From positions 1-35,408 of the IMG/VR virus record IMGVR_UViG_3300020446_000036: a DNA stretch of 35,408 bases. One strand, 5' to 3'. The DNA comes from a virus. Position 1 is the first letter of the stretch, and the number at the start of each line of letters is the position of its first letter. Shown here one piece after another: positions 18,890 to 30,659 of the stretch. Under the pieces are notes generated by a model. It was not told the origin of the DNA and made no database searches. It saw nothing but the letters and a program-made list of their open reading frames with translations. A program made the translations under genes and the position numbers.

Positions 18890-19285
18890 TCACTCCGCCT
18901 TTAGTTCGATCATTCTCTCAAGACCTGTGAGTGAATGTTGTAGATTCTTGTTGAACAAGTCTACTGCCTCTCTAAATTTAGGCCAGTCATTTCTGACATC
19001 GGGTAGGTTATCAGGTATTAACTCACACAACTTATCCAAGTTATTCTTGCCTGTTATGATTAATATCGGTCTAGGTCTAGACTTATGTTCCTGCTCCTTG
19101 TATCTAGATTCTATCTCATACATATACAAGGTTCTCTGTATGGCTTTCAACATATTTGAGTCACCTCTCATGGTCACTCTAAGTCTGACTCTATACCCTA
19201 TTCTAGTAGAATCATCCCTGTTCACGTTTATCTCTAATTTAGGCAGGGACAGCATAATCCCGATTAACTGCTCTTTTGTATACAT
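18890..19285 (-). CDS. Homing-endonuclease-like fold protein lacking a clear LAGLIDADG motif
   Basis: A 131-residue protein starting MYTKEQLIGIMLSLPKLEIN. The order of a helix, a strand pair with YRVRLRVTMRG, a helix with MLKAIQRTL, strands around RPILIITGK, a helix NLDKLCELIP and a C-terminal helix with WPKFREAVDLF resembles a single LAGLIDADG-endonuclease fold. The first helix would be where LAGLIDADG sits, but reads LIGIMLSLPKLE, without the catalytic acidic residue in a DG context. It may be a DNA-binding relative or an inactive enzyme. The fold call is by pattern only. ATG at 19285 follows GTGATGAT; a TTG at 19300 is the alternative. Confidence 0.35.
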   Translation of the reverse strand: MYTKEQLIGIMLSLPKLEINVNRDDSTRIGYRVRLRVTMRGDSNMLKAIQRTLYMYEIESRYKEQEHKSRPRPILIITGKNNLDKLCELIPDNLPDVRNDWPKFREAVDLFNKNLQHSLTGLERMIELKAE

Positions 19286-19289
19286 ATCA

Positions 19290-19778
19290 TCACTTAGCAA
19301 AATACTCGTCTCGTAGATGCAAAGCCCAATCGTCTGCGTCGGGATTTATATGTTGCGCCTCTATCTTGTCGAGTTTAGGCCAATAGACATGTCTTGGGGA
19401 AACCCGGTTGGTTCCCTCCCTCATCGCATTGTCAACTGCATAGTCAGCAGCCTGTTGAACGAATGAGTCTATCATATCCCATAGATAGTAGTTCATCGAT
19501 CTTGAGATAGAGAACCTCTTTCCATGTGAATCTGAGTGTGACTTTATCGTATTTCTGAATGTCTTGGCGATGTCTATTTTATTCGCAGTCCTTCTCTTTG
19601 GCTTATCCACTGTCGGAGTCACCAACTGACCATTTGAATCCAAGTAAGGACAGGTATTCACAGGACGTTGTATCTCGTTCTTGAAACCAACATGCTGCAA
19701 AGTCGCTATCCCTTTCTCTATCGATACGCATCTGTATGGTATCTTCTTTACTAGTGAAATCATTCCAACTTCTATCAT
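19290..19778 (-). CDS. Histone-fold protein with an N-terminal extension
   Basis: A 162-residue protein. The first 60 residues or so have an unrecognised mixed composition. From about residue 66 it reads like an archaeal histone: an alpha1-like helix (KIDIAKTFRNTIKSHS), a loop FSISRS, a long alpha2 (MNYYLWDMIDSFVQQAADYA, continuing to about 120), then EGTNRVSPRHV, which aligns without gaps to the histone L2/alpha3 segment GRKTVTARDV. The conserved Asp of the RD clamp is His here. It would bind viral DNA as a dimer, possibly with the 70-residue protein encoded on the other side of the ligase gene. It starts with a TAATG overlap to the ligase. The fold is inferred by eye. Confidence 0.5.
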   Translation of the reverse strand: MIEVGMISLVKKIPYRCVSIEKGIATLQHVGFKNEIQRPVNTCPYLDSNGQLVTPTVDKPKRRTANKIDIAKTFRNTIKSHSDSHGKRFSISRSMNYYLWDMIDSFVQQAADYAVDNAMREGTNRVSPRHVYWPKLDKIEAQHINPDADDWALHLRDEYFAK

Positions 19779-22127: not shown

Positions 22128-22559
22128 TTAGCAACTTCCGTCCCATAGCCTGTATCTAACAACGTAGTCGTATGTCATGTTCATGCTGAAGTCAGGGAAG
22201 TGCAGTATCGCACTACCAGTCGTTCCATATCCATCTGATATGTATAGACCGTTCTGATTCACATGTCCTGTCTTAGACTCGAATGTGGTATTGTCGAATA
22301 CCACTGTGTTGTTCTCAAACACGAAGGATGTGTGTGATGCTGTGTATGTGAAGTAGTCCAACTGGAACAACATCGTATCATTGCCTAAATCAACTATGGG
22401 CATGGTGCTGTTATTGTCCTGCATCCACGTCACTTCCTCATCCACCCTAACCCAATCAGGAGTAGGGCATTCGGAGAATACATCCTCCGGGTCGGGTATG
22501 GCCTCAGTGCATCCAGCCAACATCGTGCTTATCATCAATAGTGCGATTACCTTCTTCAT
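22128..22559 (-). CDS. Secreted lipoprotein with many N-glycosylation sequons
   Basis: A 143-residue protein with a classic lipoprotein signal: Lys-Lys start, hydrophobic core and lipobox LAGC (Cys17), MKKVIALLMISTMLAGC. The mature part has six N-x-S/T sequons (N49, N50, N60, N83, N90, N127), unusually many for its length, which fits surface glycosylation in archaea. Three cysteines including the lipid-bearing one, no enzyme motif. It would sit on the outer face of the host membrane. In known viruses such proteins may block superinfection or change the host surface, but this is inference. It overlaps the JAMM gene by ATGA. Confidence 0.75.
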   Translation of the reverse strand: MKKVIALLMISTMLAGCTEAIPDPEDVFSECPTPDWVRVDEEVTWMQDNNSTMPIVDLGNDTMLFQLDYFTYTASHTSFVFENNTVVFDNTTFESKTGHVNQNGLYISDGYGTTGSAILHFPDFSMNMTYDYVVRYRLWDGSC

Positions 22560-23071
22560 TCCTCTTCGCCTCCAAAGTCGAATAGAGTCGGAGAGACTCT
22601 CTGTGGGCTAACGTGACCAAACTGGTATTTAACGAATTTAGATGTGTTCGACTTCAAGTTGTATGAGAAATACTCATTGTCACCAACAACGATGGCATGT
22701 TCCATCATGGGCCTCCATGTGTTGATCGTCCTCCAATCAGTCCCACTGAAGAAAGCCTGACCGAATGGATGTGTGTGTATCCATACCTTGATCGGCAGTT
22801 TCATCCCGAATATCGACTTGTCATCTTGATTGAACCATACAAGTCCGGGGTTTCCCTCACTACAGTACATATTGTCGTTGGAGTCAATCACAACTTGAAT
22901 CTCATTACCATTACATACGTCATGAGTCACTGCCCATATCAAATCCAAGAAACGCTCACATTCCTCATTTACAGGCCAAAACGATATGTCCTCTACATTG
23001 TCGGCATAGTGAGACTTTATCTCATCAAACTTCGCATTGTCATACACTGCCACTGCTTCATCCGATAACAT
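22556..23071 (-). CDS. JAMM/MPN metalloprotease (deubiquitinase-like)
   Basis: A 171-residue protein with the JAMM zinc motif complete in spacing: H99-T-H101-P, seven residues, S109-x-x-D112 (in WIHTHPFGQAFFSGTD). The expected upstream catalytic Glu is probably in the NEIQVVID strand or just before it. Family members cleave isopeptide bonds of ubiquitin-like proteins or trim their C-termini; phage tail and sulfur-carrier systems also use them. The virus encodes a Gly-Gly-ending ubiquitin-like protein and an E1-like enzyme, so these are likely partners. Start ATG 23071 follows a perfect GGAGGTG; an ATG further upstream overlaps the neighbouring gene. Confidence 0.8.
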   Translation of the reverse strand: MLSDEAVAVYDNAKFDEIKSHYADNVEDISFWPVNEECERFLDLIWAVTHDVCNGNEIQVVIDSNDNMYCSEGNPGLVWFNQDDKSIFGMKLPIKVWIHTHPFGQAFFSGTDWRTINTWRPMMEHAIVVGDNEYFSYNLKSNTSKFVKYQFGHVSPQRVSPTLFDFGGEEE

Positions 23072-23441
23072 ACAACACACCTCCAACAAGTATGACACCA
23101 ACAACGAGCATCAGCAGCATCCTGCTTCTGTTCCTGTACACTGTCACTCTTCTGTTTACCATGCCGACGTTCTTGGTTAGTTTGTCCACTGTCTTTCGTA
23201 TCTCTTCGTCAACCTTGGTCAAATCACCAATCATCTCGTCCTGCACTGTGTCAGTGACGCTTTGGTATGTTTCGTTCTCTATCAATTCCAATCCTAGTGC
23301 GTTGACCTTGTACTTCAAGGAACCAACGGTTCTCTTGTATCCATTTTGGAAGAATTGCTCTTGTATTCTAACAAGGCTATACCCATCCTCAATGCAGTTC
23401 TTCAACAACACTACTTCTGTTTCTGTCCATTTCTTACTCAT
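23058..23441 (-). CDS. Myb/SANT-like protein with a C-terminal membrane anchor
   Basis: A 127-residue protein. Residues 3-50 (KKWTETEVVLLKNCIEDGYS, on to TVGSLKYKVNALGL) have a Myb/SANT-like or GcrA-like helix-turn-helix pattern starting with the typical W-T-E-x-E. The middle is a heptad-like helix. The last 20 residues (MLLMLVVGVILVGGVLYVIG) form a clear membrane helix. A DNA-binding head on a membrane anchor could hold the viral genome or a promoter at the membrane. The ribosome site AGGAGGTT is very good. It overlaps the JAMM gene by 14 bases. Confidence 0.6.
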   Translation of the reverse strand: MSKKWTETEVVLLKNCIEDGYSLVRIQEQFFQNGYKRTVGSLKYKVNALGLELIENETYQSVTDTVQDEMIGDLTKVDEEIRKTVDKLTKNVGMVNRRVTVYRNRSRMLLMLVVGVILVGGVLYVIG

Positions 23442-23596
23442 CTTTTCAACCTCCTATAGTTATAGGTGAATTCTTTTGCTAGAGCCATTGCTCTTTGTTC
23501 ATCAATTATACTGTTATTTCTTGTGATATATTCGGCTATCACATGTATGGGTTCTCCACCCTCTATCATCATCATAATATCGCTCATCCTACTCAT
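23438..23596 (-). CDS. Small protein (52 residues) between the E1-like and Myb-like genes
   Basis: The frame starts MSRMSDIMMMIEGGEPIHVI and ends TYNYRRLKR. Its ATG overlaps the E1-like stop (ATGA), and its stop overlaps the next ATG (ATGA), so it is locked into the operon. The composition is helical. A short GEPIHVIAEYI stretch recalls a helix-turn-helix, but too little sequence exists to assign it. Confidence 0.6.
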   Translation of the reverse strand: MSRMSDIMMMIEGGEPIHVIAEYITRNNSIIDEQRAMALAKEFTYNYRRLKR

Positions 23597-24156
23597 ATGC
23601 TCACCGTCACGAAATCCGATACTTCCTCATCATTGAATCTCTTCTGAATCCATTGTGAGCCCATTGCTGCGATTACTATATTCATCTGATTCACCTGTTC
23701 TGCGGAACCATCCCACTCCTGTGCTTGGCATGAGTAGGAACCATCATCACCAACTAATAGCATATCAAGTTTGTTTTTGTCGATGTCTGATGAGATCAAT
23801 ACGGCATTTCTTCCCTGCGCTCTCAAGTCCAGCCACTGCTTAGGTTTCTTTGAATTGTATAGCATTCTTCTCGTACTCATGTTATCAACGCAACAAACAA
23901 CAAGATCATACTTGTCAAGATCCCTATCCATAACAACATCAAATGGTTGTGCCTTGATGTTGAACTGTGTCTGCATGGACCTCGCCTTTGTATCTCCAAT
24001 GTGAGATACGTTGTAGTTCTGATACAGAATGTTCTTTCTTTCTACCTTATCTGAGTCAAAAACCGTTAGGTCGTATATCTTCAGTTTATTCAGGAATTGC
24101 ACAAGGAAACTCCCTATGCCACCTGCTCCTATTATCAATATCTTTCTTTTACTCAT
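23593..24156 (-). CDS. E1/ThiF/MoeB-like adenylating enzyme
   Basis: A 187-residue protein with the nucleotide loop GAGGIGS at 10-16, then FDSDKVERKNILYQ at 33-46 (matching D.D.VE.SNL.RQ) with HIGDTKA at 52-58, and CCVDNMSTRR at 88-97 (the C.DN...R motif). This is the adenylation domain of enzymes that activate the C-terminal Gly-Gly of ubiquitin-like proteins. It is shorter than MoeB (about 250 residues) and lacks the usual paired CxxC zinc ligands; only C88, C89 and C143 exist as possible catalytic cysteines. The partner is inferred to be the Gly-Gly protein encoded at 28731-28928. Start ATG 24156 follows GAGTGAT. Confidence 0.8.
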   Translation of the reverse strand: MSKRKILIIGAGGIGSFLVQFLNKLKIYDLTVFDSDKVERKNILYQNYNVSHIGDTKARSMQTQFNIKAQPFDVVMDRDLDKYDLVVCCVDNMSTRRMLYNSKKPKQWLDLRAQGRNAVLISSDIDKNKLDMLLVGDDGSYSCQAQEWDGSAEQVNQMNIVIAAMGSQWIQKRFNDEEVSDFVTVSI

Positions 24157-24161
24157 TTTAA

Positions 24162-24374
24162 TCACTCATCCTCTTCTCTCTTTAGTTCATCCAAGAGATG
24201 CTGTGGCGCACCTGCTTCAATCAATCTTACTTTTAGTACCTCATAGAGCCAACAGTCGTCACAACAAACTCCCTCTTTGACAGGTTCCGCATCATGACCC
24301 CACCAATGGGGATTATCATCGTCTATTCGCATTGTTTTTTCACATATTACACATATTTCCAATCTTACCATCAT
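24162..24374 (-). CDS. Small zinc-ribbon protein (70 residues)
   Basis: The 70-residue product has CVIC at 8-11 and CCDDC at 37-41 around a His/Trp-rich stretch (NPHWWGHDAEP), a likely zinc ribbon. The C-terminal third is a charged helix. Its ATG overlaps the TFB stop (ATGATGG, two possible starts). Co-transcribed with TFB and the E1-like gene. No named family. Confidence 0.55.
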   Translation of the reverse strand: MMVRLEICVICEKTMRIDDDNPHWWGHDAEPVKEGVCCDDCWLYEVLKVRLIEAGAPQHLLDELKREEDE

Positions 24375-25264
24375 ATTATCAACTTCCTCTTAAATTGTAA
24401 GTAGTATTCAGGAACTACTTGTTTCCTCTTCATTCCTAGGCATCTCAGTATCCTAGCAGCAGCAGTTCTGATCGTCACTTCTGAGACACCTTGGGTTCGC
24501 TGCAACTGCCTTTGTGTCACACTTCTCTCATTGAATCTCGCAGTTAACCAAATACCTGCGAGAACCTGTGTCGTGGTAAATGCCTCATCTGAGAACATTT
24601 CCTTGATACCGTAGAGTATCTCAATGCACTCACTCATCAAGTAAGTGTCATCGTCGTAGGAGCCGAGTGTGTCAGTAAGTATCCTTTGTACCTCGCTCTC
24701 TATGTTTATCTGCCTAGGTCTTATGTTGTCTCCCAATGCCCTCATCGTCTTCTTCAGTAGTTTGAAGAAGGGCTTGAACTCCTGTCCATTCGTCTTGCAG
24801 AATTGCCTGACTGTCACACTGACATTGTGTTTCCTGAGTGTGGCATATGCAACAGCAGCACCAAACATTTCTGCATTTGACGCATGATACTGAAACCGTC
24901 TCTCCCTCAAGAAGTTGGAGATGTATGCTGCATCCTCCTTCATCGTCTGTGATGGGTTGTAGTAGGATAATGCCATGTGGATGATCGATCTATACTTGTC
25001 ACTTTTCTTATTGTATCTCTCGACTCTCTTCAATGCCCTTATTCTCTTGTCACCATACTGACCTGCTCCTATGACTGAGCCTAAGTCCTTGGTTCTACTG
25101 ACTGACTCCCTACCTATCATGCCCATGTCTCTTCCGGGCATCATCATACTACTGGTTTCCTCTAAGGGAGTCAGCATGATGACAAGACCACAATTGTCAC
25201 AGGTGTGTTCACCTAACCTCTCATCATAGGTAGACTCACTATTACCACATTCAATGCATTTCAT
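24371..25264 (-). CDS. tfb: Transcription factor B (TFIIB-like)
   Basis: A 297-residue protein with an N-terminal zinc ribbon (C3, C6, C22, C25 in CIEC and CDNC) and a linker containing LGSVIG, as in archaeal TFB B-reader/linker regions. Two cyclin-like repeats follow, the first around 85-185 and the second around 205-290, ending with a helix-turn-helix (VTQRQLQRTQGVSEVTIRTA) that would read the BRE. It would direct host RNA polymerase to viral promoters. It overlaps the upstream gene by 14 bases. Start ATG 25264 is preferred; GTG 25273 is possible. Confidence 0.9.
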   Translation of the reverse strand: MKCIECGNSESTYDERLGEHTCDNCGLVIMLTPLEETSSMMMPGRDMGMIGRESVSRTKDLGSVIGAGQYGDKRIRALKRVERYNKKSDKYRSIIHMALSYYNPSQTMKEDAAYISNFLRERRFQYHASNAEMFGAAVAYATLRKHNVSVTVRQFCKTNGQEFKPFFKLLKKTMRALGDNIRPRQINIESEVQRILTDTLGSYDDDTYLMSECIEILYGIKEMFSDEAFTTTQVLAGIWLTARFNERSVTQRQLQRTQGVSEVTIRTAAARILRCLGMKRKQVVPEYYLQFKRKLII

Positions 25265-26519
25265 TTTCTTCACTTATCTCATTATTACATCTATCTATCC
25301 ATTCTTTGTCTACTCTTATCACCTTTGGTGGAAGATTGCTTCTTAGAGTATGGATCGCATTCACTGCTGCTTGGTCATTCAACAGGGCCAACGCCCTAGA
25401 TACTATCTGATCACCTATGCTAGAGTTCCCATGTATGTTGTCTATGCATATGGGTCCATTCAACTTGTATTGACCCATCGCAACTTTGTGGGTTCTGTGT
25501 GGTGAAACACCGCTTATGGAATATACCTCTACGCTTTGATGCTTGTTGGAAGTGCGTCGTTGTGGTATGATCACCCAATCAGCGAGTTGACCATTCACCA
25601 ACATACTCTTCCTAGGGAGATGATCATTCTCATCCTCCTTGTGCATGAACACCTTCAACCTAGTGGGGAACTTGGCCTCCATCTCAGTAAGGAGTTTCTG
25701 CGCCCTTTCCTCTACGATCTTCTGTGTTCTATTCTGATCTAGGAAATGATGCATTACTCGCTCAGTCGATGCTGACATGTTCTTGTAGGTATCCATGTCT
25801 AGAGTTCTGATTAGATTCATAGGAGAAAGATTCCACTTCTTCGATCTGTTGTTCATGTCCTTGTGATATTTTAGGAAGGAGTCTAGATCCTTGTTCTTTA
25901 TTGGAATCCATAGAGAGTCTGATATCTCCAATGCACATTCCTTATCACTGATTCTCTTTGTGTTGAGTCTGACCTTCACTCTCTCACCATCCCTGAAATA
26001 TCGATATGGTGTCCTGTTCTCCAAGGCATGAATAACCCTAGGTGGAACAGTGAGAAGCATGTTGACATACTCCTTCATGGTCACGCTACTCTTCTCAAAG
26101 CATAGTCTATTGATGATCTTGGACATTATGTGTTCTGCGTTTTCCTTGGAAACTGCCACTCCATTCAGTCTGACACTTGATTTATTGTAGAGAAGATGTA
26201 CGGTAAACATACCATCCTCCATCTTCCTAGATATGATGACATTCTGATTGTCGTCATTGTATATTACCGAGAACTTGTTCAACCTAGACCTTGGAAAGAA
26301 CCAAACTCTCATCGCTTGTCTGATATTCTCAAGTACAGGGTCATCTGAACTGGACATATTCGTATGTCCCACTTTCATCATGTGTTCGCCTAGATGGTTG
26401 ACAGTATTCCTTCTCCTTCTATGAGAAGAGAGTGGAGGAACATACCTGACGAGCATCGATGTCTTGTAGTATTCATCCCTATTGTCATTCGGCGTTGGTA
26501 TTAGCACTTTGATTTTCAT
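25251..26519 (-). CDS. Unknown 422-residue basic protein
   Basis: I do not recognise this protein. It starts MKIKVLIPTPNDNRDEYYKT and has an unusually basic composition with several Arg/Lys patches (SSHRRRRN near residue 32). The middle is mixed strands and helices (LLYNKSSVRLNGVAVSKENA), and the C-terminal part has IIPQRRTSNKHQSVEVYSI and a helix-rich end. Position before TFB and after the reductase suggests an information-processing role, but no motif confirms it. The ribosome site AGGTGAT before the ATG at 26519 is excellent. Confidence 0.6.
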   Translation of the reverse strand: MKIKVLIPTPNDNRDEYYKTSMLVRYVPPLSSHRRRRNTVNHLGEHMMKVGHTNMSSSDDPVLENIRQAMRVWFFPRSRLNKFSVIYNDDNQNVIISRKMEDGMFTVHLLYNKSSVRLNGVAVSKENAEHIMSKIINRLCFEKSSVTMKEYVNMLLTVPPRVIHALENRTPYRYFRDGERVKVRLNTKRISDKECALEISDSLWIPIKNKDLDSFLKYHKDMNNRSKKWNLSPMNLIRTLDMDTYKNMSASTERVMHHFLDQNRTQKIVEERAQKLLTEMEAKFPTRLKVFMHKEDENDHLPRKSMLVNGQLADWVIIPQRRTSNKHQSVEVYSISGVSPHRTHKVAMGQYKLNGPICIDNIHGNSSIGDQIVSRALALLNDQAAVNAIHTLRSNLPPKVIRVDKEWIDRCNNEISEENEMH

Positions 26520-28730: not shown

Positions 28731-28928
28731 TCAACCGCCTATGATGGCAGGTGCGAGTGTTATGTTATCCACGGAAGTCCAATCGACTTGGCTGATGGTT
28801 TCCCTGCTTGTCAGTTCTCCATCTATGAATACCCAATGGGTAGGATGCTCATTGATCTGCTCAATGGCCTCAGTCATTGTCACTTCTAGGTCTGTGTGTC
28901 CAGTTTCATTCATTATCACTAATTGCAT
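28731..28928 (-). CDS. Ubiquitin-like / sulfur-carrier-like protein ending in Gly-Gly
   Basis: A 65-residue protein, the size of ThiS. It starts MQLVIMNETG (a first strand like that of ubiquitin, MQIFVKT), then a second strand HTDLEVT, a helix MTEAIEQINEH, a strand THWVFIDGEL and a last strand VDNITLAPAIIGG. The ending D-x-I-x-L-x-P-A-x-x-GG is the ThiS/MoaD/SAMP pattern, with Gly-Gly directly before the stop. A strong GGAGG lies eight bases before the ATG, fixing the start. It could be conjugated to proteins or carry sulfur, activated by the E1-like enzyme encoded 4.6 kb downstream. Sequence pattern is clear; function is inferred. Confidence 0.7.
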   Translation of the reverse strand: MQLVIMNETGHTDLEVTMTEAIEQINEHPTHWVFIDGELTSRETISQVDWTSVDNITLAPAIIGG

Positions 28929-28969
28929 GTCTTTTTCCTCCGGTATTTTCTTGTTTTCTTCGATAGTCC

Positions 28970-29194
28970 TTAAGCGTTGCCGCCTAGTTCCTTGAGCCTT
29001 CCCGACAATACGTTGATCGTTGTCTCGTAGTGTGTGCAAAGTGCATTCAATTCGTTTGCCTTGTTAACGACTAACTGCAATTGCTGGTTGAGGTAAGCAA
29101 TCTGTTCTTCAGGGGTTGCTGGCCTCGTCTCAGGTTCTTCGACTTTCGGCTGTTCTGCTTCTTTCTCATTTTTATTGTCTTTCTTTTTACTCAT
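28970..29194 (-). CDS. Coiled-coil protein with a disordered start
   Basis: A 74-residue protein starting MSKKKDNKNEKEAEQPKVEE, a highly charged, Pro-containing and probably disordered arm of about 30 residues. It is followed by a long helix with heptad-like spacing (IAYLNQQLQLVVNKANELNA, then YETTINVLSGRLKEL). It may form dimers or trimers. ATG 29194 is preceded by GGAGATGATT. No family recognised. Confidence 0.55.
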   Translation of the reverse strand: MSKKKDNKNEKEAEQPKVEEPETRPATPEEQIAYLNQQLQLVVNKANELNALCTHYETTINVLSGRLKELGGNA

Positions 29195-29277: not shown

Positions 29278-30420
29278 TCATTCACTCCTATTTTTCATTT
29301 CTTCAATTAACCTAGAGGCTTCGTACTTGGTCAACCCGTCCGTGTCTCTTCCATAGCCTAATGCCTTTAGGTAGTTTCGCTGTTTCTCCGTTGCCGGAGT
29401 TTCATCCGAGGCCCTTGTCAATATCTTGTGTAATGTCGATGCTTGTGCATCGGACATCATACCGTCATTCGACAGCCTCTTCTTCATGTCACTTAGGAAG
29501 TTCCTCTCCCAAGCGTTGATTCCATCTTCCTCACTAAACACACGGAAACCATAGTTATCACATGCGTATGCAAACTTGGATTCCTTCGTCTCGTTCTTCA
29601 TCCTCTCGGATAACTCGATCTGTCTCCTTCTAGCATCTAGAAGATTGTCCTCGGTTTCTAACTCTTGGACATGTCTCTCCTTGAATGCGAAGAACAGTGT
29701 CAGGTCATTCATCAGTGAATCATTCGGGTATCCCCTAGACGATTGTTGGTTCCTAGTGTTGTCAGGGTGATTCCATCGCCATACGATAGAAGCCATCTCA
29801 TAATCAGAAGTACCATATGTACCCGATCCTCTTTTTCGCAACTTGGTGATGCTTCTCTTCATCCTCAACTCATTGTCCCAATACTTCTTACCAGTATCCC
29901 TGACGTTGACTCTAAGATCAAGGTCTTTGACTGCGTTGAACATATCAGTGAATGCCTTGCCATGTCTAGCCCACCAAGCATCCTTCTTCATTGACTCGAC
30001 CCTAACGCTGACCCATTGCTCGATCATCTCATCAGTGATCTCATCATCCTTGAGGTTCTTCTCATTGGCAATGGCCTTCATGATCATGTAAGAGTTGATG
30101 TGGTCGGAACCAACACACTCGATGTTTCCATTCTCAGTGTTCTCTATCTCAAAGTGATATACGATATGATGACCACATAGACAGTAGTTGGGATGTAGTA
30201 GTGCGAACTTAGGCGCACTTGAGCCATCGCCCCAATACACATCACCAGTGGCCCTCCACTCAAGTTTGGCCTCATCATAGTTATCCGCTACAGATAACTC
30301 AACTATCCTCTTCATGAGTTTCCTATCCCAATGGCCCTTTCCTAGTTCCCTCTTTGGGCTCCATTCTTGTCTCTCCATTGTCAATTCAATTGCTTCTCTC
30401 GGTATCCAAGAACTATCCAT
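29278..30420 (-). CDS. Protein with a Cys/His cluster and a C-terminal T-x-K-Q...LTKxEAS helical module
   Basis: A 380-residue protein. Around residues 79-108 it has CLCGHHIVYHFEIENTENGN followed by VGSDHI, a pattern (C-x-CGH-x-I-x-Y-x-F ... VGS) that I recall from phage and bacterial proteins of unknown function and that may bind zinc. The last 40 residues (ATEKQRNYLKALGYGRDTDG followed by LTKYEASRLIEEM) form the two-helix T-x-K-Q..YL..L...LTK.EAS motif found at the ends of various DNA-related phage proteins. The middle is helical and basic. TGATG overlap with the upstream gene; GGTGATT precedes the ATG. Confidence 0.55.
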   Translation of the reverse strand: MDSSWIPREAIELTMERQEWSPKRELGKGHWDRKLMKRIVELSVADNYDEAKLEWRATGDVYWGDGSSAPKFALLHPNYCLCGHHIVYHFEIENTENGNIECVGSDHINSYMIMKAIANEKNLKDDEITDEMIEQWVSVRVESMKKDAWWARHGKAFTDMFNAVKDLDLRVNVRDTGKKYWDNELRMKRSITKLRKRGSGTYGTSDYEMASIVWRWNHPDNTRNQQSSRGYPNDSLMNDLTLFFAFKERHVQELETEDNLLDARRRQIELSERMKNETKESKFAYACDNYGFRVFSEEDGINAWERNFLSDMKKRLSNDGMMSDAQASTLHKILTRASDETPATEKQRNYLKALGYGRDTDGLTKYEASRLIEEMKNRSE

Positions 30421-30659
30421 CAATAATCACCCTCCGACTTCTCATACATTCTTTGTTCCTCTAGCCATGCTTGAAGCATGAAGTCTATCTTACCAAAGAC
30501 AGCCTCACTAAGACCACCAATGGTCTTTCGATGTAGTGCGAGCCAAGTCCTGTGTGCTGTATTCAGCACGACCTTGACGTTATCACTCTCATCAGGTGTC
30601 ACCATCAATGGTGGCATTTCTTCATCATTCACCAATACAAAATCTACATTTACATCCAT
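30420..30659 (-). CDS. Hypothetical 79-residue protein
   Basis: A protein starting MDVNVDFVLVNDEEMPPLMV at the ATG 30659, which follows a perfect GGAGGTATT. A strand-rich first half is followed by two helices (AHRTWLALHRKTIGGLSEAV and GKIDFMLQAWLEEQRMYE). No family recognised. The frame is open upstream inside the previous gene, but the ribosome site decides the start. Confidence 0.6.
   Translation of the reverse strand: MDVNVDFVLVNDEEMPPLMVTPDESDNVKVVLNTAHRTWLALHRKTIGGLSEAVFGKIDFMLQAWLEEQRMYEKSEGDY

Follow-up and report, generated by a model that had tools for sequence, protein, structure and literature searches.

Ubiquitin-like protein, E1-fold enzyme and JAMM protease genes co-occur in magrovirus-type viruses and probably specify a reversible protein-modification system

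The window analysed here (35,408 nucleotides, positions 1 to 35,408 of IMG/VR record IMGVR_UViG_3300020446_000036) carries genes for a small ubiquitin-like protein (Ubl), an E1/ThiF-like enzyme (E1) and a JAMM/JAB metalloprotease (JAB), all on one strand, with the E1 gene 4.6 kb and the JAB gene 5.6 kb downstream of the Ubl gene. The three genes strictly co-occur, which makes the Ubl–E1–JAB triad a core feature of the group. With a probability of roughly 60 per cent, we consider Ubl, E1 and JAB to be a virus-encoded, reversible protein-modification system resembling SAMP modification or urmylation; these viruses probably bring their own means of tagging and untagging proteins. A preliminary description of the window had not connected the E1 and JAB genes with Ubl, whose resemblance to known modifiers they turn into a plausible pathway. 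Viruses are known for hijacking or undoing the ubiquitin-like tagging of their hosts; a modifier, an E1 and a remover as an invariant viral gene set are unusual.

The gene content includes a split PolB, RFC, PCNA, TFB, an ATP ligase, an SF1 helicase and a class II RNR (helicase, ligase and RNR were identified by HMM, the clamp loader by tblastn, and PolB, PCNA and TFB were read from the open reading frames). Magroviruses (order Magrovirales) are tailed archaeal viruses with genomes of 90–110 kb that encode a split PolB, RFC-S, PCNA, TFB, an ATP ligase and an SF1 helicase (PMC10768690). The genomes related to the window are 84–103 kb long, to which one record of 185 kb is added. From the gene content, the size of the relatives and the magrovirus literature, we infer that the window comes from a magrovirus-type virus with hosts among the Poseidoniales. 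According to the same literature, such hosts would be abundant archaea of the surface ocean, and this type of virus is very common in the sea. The window also contains a 136-aa open reading frame (18890–19300, minus strand) with weak LAGLIDADG-like similarity (E 0.0023, below the cut-off).

The Ubl gene and its immediate surroundings comprise the following features.

28731–28928 (stop included), minus strand: Ubl, 65 aa, including MQLVIMNETGH...TLAPAIIGG; recognized from sequence, homologues, an AlphaFold2 (AF2) model and the ThiS profile
28734–28739, minus strand: codons of the C-terminal Gly-Gly, with no tail after it in this protein
28937–28941, minus strand: GGAGG, Shine-Dalgarno-like, read directly from the sequence, with an 8-base spacer to the Ubl ATG
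28929–29039, minus strand: accidental open extension of 37 codons from a TTG, outside the Ubl protein; from the open reading frame list and homologues

The automatically called reading frame (28731–29039, minus strand) begins at a TTG and yields a protein of 102 aa, exceeding by 111 bases, or 37 codons, the 65-aa Ubl that starts at the internal ATG (28926–28928). The preliminary description had pointed out this open frame and the GGAGG eight bases before the internal ATG, and both are confirmed, by the reading frame listing and by direct reading, respectively; where it supposed an upstream ATG, however, the upstream start is a TTG. Its choice of the internal ATG as the true start agrees with the homologues. 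The 24 relatives found first (54–92 per cent identity) align from residue 1 onward, half of them with one extra N-terminal residue, and the sequences 5' of their starts are different and contain stops in most cases. Two in-frame stops lie within the would-be extension of the closest relative (L024, 92 per cent identical). An ATG occupies the equivalent position in 112 of 114 distinct homologues, 37 or more open codons 5' of the start are found in only one of the 114, and a conserved N-terminal extension is found in none. Because the homologues share the internal ATG and the extension is not conserved, sequence comparison places the true start at that ATG and marks the 37 codons as accidental. 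The risk of misannotation is peculiar to this genome and does not extend to the Ubl family.

A profile search found at least 173 viral Ubl loci. Between the window Ubl and that of L024, pS is 0.67 and pN is 0.03, and dN/dS in close pairs with measurable dS ranges from 0.05 to 0.19; substitutions are strongly synonymous, and purifying selection on the gene is strong. The Ubl gene is also present on three GTDB contigs (NZTP01000027, 30 and 16; loci L085, L086 and L087) of the Altibacter MAG EAC109, which are most likely wrongly binned viral contigs.

The AF2 model of Ubl, built with 25 family members, has secondary structure elements in the order E-E-H-E-E-H-E (pLDDT 86.7). Its structural neighbours (Foldseek and VIA-align) are overwhelmingly ubiquitin-like and include ubiquitin, MoaD (Z 5.8 over 62 residues, 3.0 A), SAMP2 bound to a JAMM, TtuB (24 per cent identity) and a bacterial Ubl–DUB complex. 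Individually, these matches score modestly (Foldseek E 3e-3, Z below 6), which is normal for a protein of 65 residues. Ubl is thus predicted to have a beta-grasp fold (b-b-a-b-b-[a]-b). In a profile–profile comparison (hhalign), the diverse Ubl profile aligned end to end with a ThiS profile that we built from E. coli and Bacteroidota sequences (E 4.4e-5, 66 columns), GG on GG. The alignment score was 27.1 versus a maximum of 18.2 among 200 column shuffles in which the terminal GG was retained, none of the 200 being as good. The match to MoaD was weaker (E 0.0018).

The 65-aa window Ubl had no match among the HMMs of Pfam, PHROGs, NCBIfam and PADLOC. With the Pfam ThiS/MoaD model (PF02597), the best family member reached E 0.033 and stayed below the curated score; since Pfam ThiS does not reach Ubl, we name the protein ThiS-like and not a ThiS. 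A search of PDB chains with the Ubl sequence profile returned no ThiS, MoaD or ubiquitin match (best E 0.16), and the case for Ubl is therefore carried by the fold and the profile–profile tests. In length and sequence, Ubl is nearer to ThiS and TtuB than to ubiquitin. Of the likeness to ubiquitin proposed in the preliminary description, the beta-grasp check by structure and by ThiS profile comparison upholds the fold, whereas length and sequence point to ThiS and TtuB; the ThiS/MoaD-type ending that it saw in TLAPAIIGG is borne out by direct reading and by the alignment of the two GG pairs.

Gly-Gly is present in every Ubl homologue seen, followed almost always by zero, one or two residues (a few homologues read as having three, and one has seven). 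The identities of these tails vary (Y, C, SL, NY, CY, Q and others). A GG with a short, variable tail is the sequence pattern of a Ubl precursor that would be matured after the GG. In 99 of the 114 distinct homologues, the Ubl core has no lysine, and lysine accounts for 0.2 per cent of residues versus 6–8 per cent in neighbouring proteins. A modifier that has to avoid self-tagging would be expected to show such depletion; the observation is suggestive only, because E. coli ThiS is likewise lysine-free and the viral Ubl is poor in arginine too.

The E1 gene and a small gene that overlaps it are located as follows.

23593–24165, minus strand: E1/ThiF-like adenylating enzyme (predicted), 190 aa, possible start at Met4; from Pfam ThiF and an AF2 model
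24162–24374, minus strand: zinc-finger-like protein with CxxC...CCxxC, 70 aa, overlapping the E1 start; present in 16 of 67 loci

The window E1 matches Pfam ThiF at 1.2e-15 (57.7 bits, cut-off 28.1). Its AF2 model (pLDDT 89) folds like Cap2 and, in VIA comparisons, has Z of about 20 to NAE/SUMO E1, MoeB, ThiF and UBA5, with matches covering nearly the full length. The nucleotide-site residues GxGGxG, DxD..N..Q, K and DN..R are invariant among 38 diverse members, and the arginine of the MoeB/ThiF NLqRQ motif is replaced by Tyr48, which is nearly invariant in the viral family. From its model and conserved residues, the viral protein is therefore best described as having the E1 fold but an altered site, and adenylation is predicted for it. 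Cys146 is the only invariant cysteine of a loop that is modelled with low confidence, and its spacing fits the zinc-ligand cysteine of ThiF better than the catalytic Cys184; a thioester in the viral E1 is therefore not assured. The CxxC zinc pairs of ThiF and MoeB are absent, and the UbaA model scores 37 bits on the viral E1 versus a cut-off of 450.

For the protease, three features can be listed.

22556–23104, minus strand: JAMM/JAB metalloprotease, 182 aa (TTG at 23104) or 170 aa (start at 23068); from Prok-JAB and the motif
22736–22777, minus strand: JAMM motif HTHPFGQAFFSGTD, H110 to D123; the complete metal motif
22901–22903, minus strand: conserved Glu68

JAB carries the invariant Glu and the HTHPx6SxxD of active JAMM enzymes, and the strict pattern (E plus HxH(x10)D, with Ser) is found in 160 of 165 distinct JAB sequences; of the remaining five, four have E-V-S for E-x-Q and one is cut within the reading frame. 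The Prok-JAB model scores weakly on the window protein (18.8 bits versus a cut-off of 25); of 40 family members, 34 give a match with E no higher than 0.01, the lowest E being 1.4e-4. Once matches to designed Armadillo and beta-propeller chains are rejected as repeat artefacts, the solved structures closest to JAB are those of AMSH-type deubiquitinases and of the Rpn11 homologue from Caldiarchaeum. Among the 16 distinct JAB–Ubl pairs in which Ubl is tailless, the JAMM motif is intact in all, which indicates that trimming is not the only job of JAB and argues for deconjugation in addition to maturation.

The partners of a SAMP-type modifier, E1 and JAMM, are encoded in the window together with Ubl, and all 24 near-complete related genomes have Ubl, E1 and JAB. 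When only loci long enough to show the partner are taken, those fetched by E1 contain Ubl in 43/43 and JAB in 77/77 cases, and those fetched by JAB contain Ubl in 43/43 and E1 in 62/62. With the clamp-loader gene as the fetch, which is outside the proposed system, E1 and JAB were found in all 31 loci that have the full 10 kb upstream. Of 80 loci fetched by a nearby 381-aa protein, 79 have Ubl; the remaining contig breaks off inside the gene for the 381-aa protein. Loci fetched by PolB mostly stop short of the triad and are uninformative for co-occurrence. Loss of a triad member was never seen in loci long enough to show it. As the triad genes sit in a conserved block, their co-occurrence partly reflects shared descent, and the counts are inflated accordingly. 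The direct neighbour of Ubl, the RNR gene, is present in only 47 of 69 loci, and a functional link between Ubl and RNR was dropped on that ground.

Two further proteins of the block, both with unassigned function, are as universal as the triad. One is the 381-aa protein (29278–30423, minus strand; 67 loci), whose features are a ClCGH motif, the strongly conserved stretch VWRWNH and a DUF3072-like C-terminal tail, and the other is a 422-aa protein (25251–26519, minus strand; 68 loci). Both are candidates for components or targets of the system. In tblastn searches of 50,697 phage records, neither Ubl nor the 422-aa protein had a match, and close magrovirus relatives therefore seem to be absent from that collection. 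The record IMGVR_UViG_3300021958_000021 (184,733 bp) contains two different complete Ubl–E1–JAB sets (loci L021 and L077) about 93 kb apart, and probably represents two magrovirus genomes joined in assembly.

We propose that Ubl would serve as a virus-specific modifier of the ThiS/SAMP/Urm1 type. The viral E1 would use ATP to adenylate the C-terminal Gly-Gly of Ubl and would pass Ubl to amino groups, probably of lysines, on host or viral proteins, a transfer that would proceed without a recognized viral E2 or E3. The viral JAMM would trim the short tail of Ubl in viruses that have one, and would take Ubl off its targets, so that the three proteins would act on one another. No E2 or E3 was found in the virus, although the search for E2 (PF00179) lacked a positive control and is hence no proof of absence. 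SAMP and Urm1 systems work without E2 and E3. The targets may be host proteins of transcription, replication or defence, or virion proteins. Host transcription is one idea, suggested by analogy because SAMPylation in Haloferax drives turnover of TBP2 (PMC4895103), and a viral TFB lies in the same block. A more far-reaching claim, that magroviruses possess, as an essential part of their core functions, a complete and self-sufficient reversible tagging system that re-tags host or virion proteins during infection and is the first full one to be recognized in an archaeal virus, we advance tentatively and rate a little below even odds.

The main rival to protein tagging is sulfur carriage, in which Ubl adenylated by E1 would receive a C-terminal thiocarboxylate and hand its sulfur on to a cofactor, to tRNA or to some other small molecule; JAB would only trim, and a host sulfur pathway would be boosted. 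ThiS as the closest profile match and TtuB as a structural neighbour favour this reading, as do operons of JAB, ThiS-like and E1 genes described for sulfur assimilation; a trimming role for JAB was proposed in such siderophore- and sulfur-assimilation-linked operons (PMC1779556). However, no rhodanese, class V cysteine desulfurase, ATP_bind_3 thiolase (TtuA/Ncs6-type ATPase) or MoaE was found in the 24 near-complete genomes, in searches that detected their controls; JAB stays intact beside tailless Ubls, and the viral E1 lacks the zinc pairs of ThiF and MoeB. Host enzymes could supply sulfur, and the missing viral partners therefore lower but do not remove the standing of this explanation, which we judge unlikely. 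A dual function, with Ubl as both sulfur donor and protein tag in the manner of Urm1 and archaeal SAMP2, is known for Urm1/Uba4 (PMC5349211) and would fit a ThiS-like Ubl sequence together with an AMSH-like JAB. Yet no viral sulfur-transfer gene was found in the same 24 genomes, and homology is the one positive point for either half; we regard dual function as decidedly improbable.

Two other roles have very little probability. Ubl could be a non-covalent inhibitor of a host protease, similar to the Lon inhibitor PinA, or could act as a decoy in the SAMP pathway of the host: one member (L014:9998-10201) matches PinA at E 4.6e-4, 13 of 25 members fall under E 1, and one member matches the PHROG Lon-inhibitor profile at E 0.01. 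The PinA identity was set aside, as every score is below the Pfam cut-off, and inhibitor and decoy alike leave the universal GG, the tail and the fixed E1 and JAB partners unexplained. T4 PinA, a Lon protease inhibitor, might itself merit comparison with beta-grasp folds. A structural or virion role, like that of the lambdoid phage tail assembly proteins TAPI (Ubl) and TAPK (JAB), recalls the Ubl–JAB pairs known in phage tail operons (PMC1779556) and the phage tail-tip proteins among the BFVD matches of Ubl, but seems slightly less credible still: instead of tail genes, the triad has RNR, TFB, clamp-loader and ligase genes as neighbours, and it includes an E1, whereas described TAPI neighbourhoods list none. 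That the Ubl reading frame arose by chance, as its shortness and the failure of library HMMs to match the window copy might suggest, is refuted by at least 173 viral loci under strong purifying selection with conserved start and end.

Among known systems, Haloferax SAMP/UbaA/HvJAMM1 shares with the viral triad a small beta-grasp Ubl ending in GG, a single E1, a JAMM desampylase, no E2 or E3 found, and (as we infer for the virus) an archaeal host. Here, in contrast, the genes are encoded by a virus, the GG is often followed by one or two residues, and the E1, of 190 aa, differs from UbaA in lacking zinc cysteines and a C-terminal extension and in having Tyr for the Arg of NLqRQ. ThiS–ThiF (thiamine) and TtuB/TtuA (tRNA thiolation) share the length class of 65–66 aa, the GG end and the best profile match, but the viral set has a JAMM enzyme, sulfur-transfer partners were not found with it, and the PF02597 score is not reached. 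Operons of JAB, ThiS-like and E1 genes for siderophores or sulfur assimilation (PMC1779556) have the same three components, whereas the viral block has core viral genes and no biosynthetic genes. Bacterial Bil (E1/E2/Ubl/JAB) and CBASS Cap2/Cap3 share E1 and JAMM chemistry; those are host defences with E1–E2 components, whereas here a virus holds the genes. Borgs are archaeal extrachromosomal elements with AMSH-like JAMM de-SAMPylases, and Lilac Borg has a SAMP; unlike the viral protease, the Borg JAMMs are multicopy and were interpreted as counter-defence, and the E1 described is that of the host (PMC12660748).

A 2021 paper on host prediction counted MoeB/ThiF among the auxiliary genes that archaeal viruses carry most often, and mentioned ubiquitination (PMC8276007). 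This common gene probably serves an overlooked 65-aa Ubl and not molybdopterin. Ubiquitin, ThiF and JAB go unmentioned in the main text of a 2023 paper on brackish magroviruses, and we found no earlier report of Ubl or of the full triad, although the magrovirus papers of Philosof (2017) and Prabhu (2025) may mention Ubl or JAB. If proteins are indeed tagged, the role of minimal Ubl conjugation without E2 and E3 would be directly testable with a module of three genes that is transferable to Haloferax.

The crAss-like phages resemble the magrovirus-type viruses in having a virus-encoded E1 beside a JAB whose active-site sequence is similar. In crAss001 (MH675552.1, 2265–4660; locus L247), the JAB-domain protein gp77 (HSHNNMATFFSGTD) is encoded directly before the ThiF/E1 protein gp76. 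Unlike the viral E1 of the triad, gp76 has 383 aa and an extra N-terminal domain, and a nearby Ubl is neither annotated nor found in this phage; Crassvirales may hold a similar system with an unannotated Ubl.
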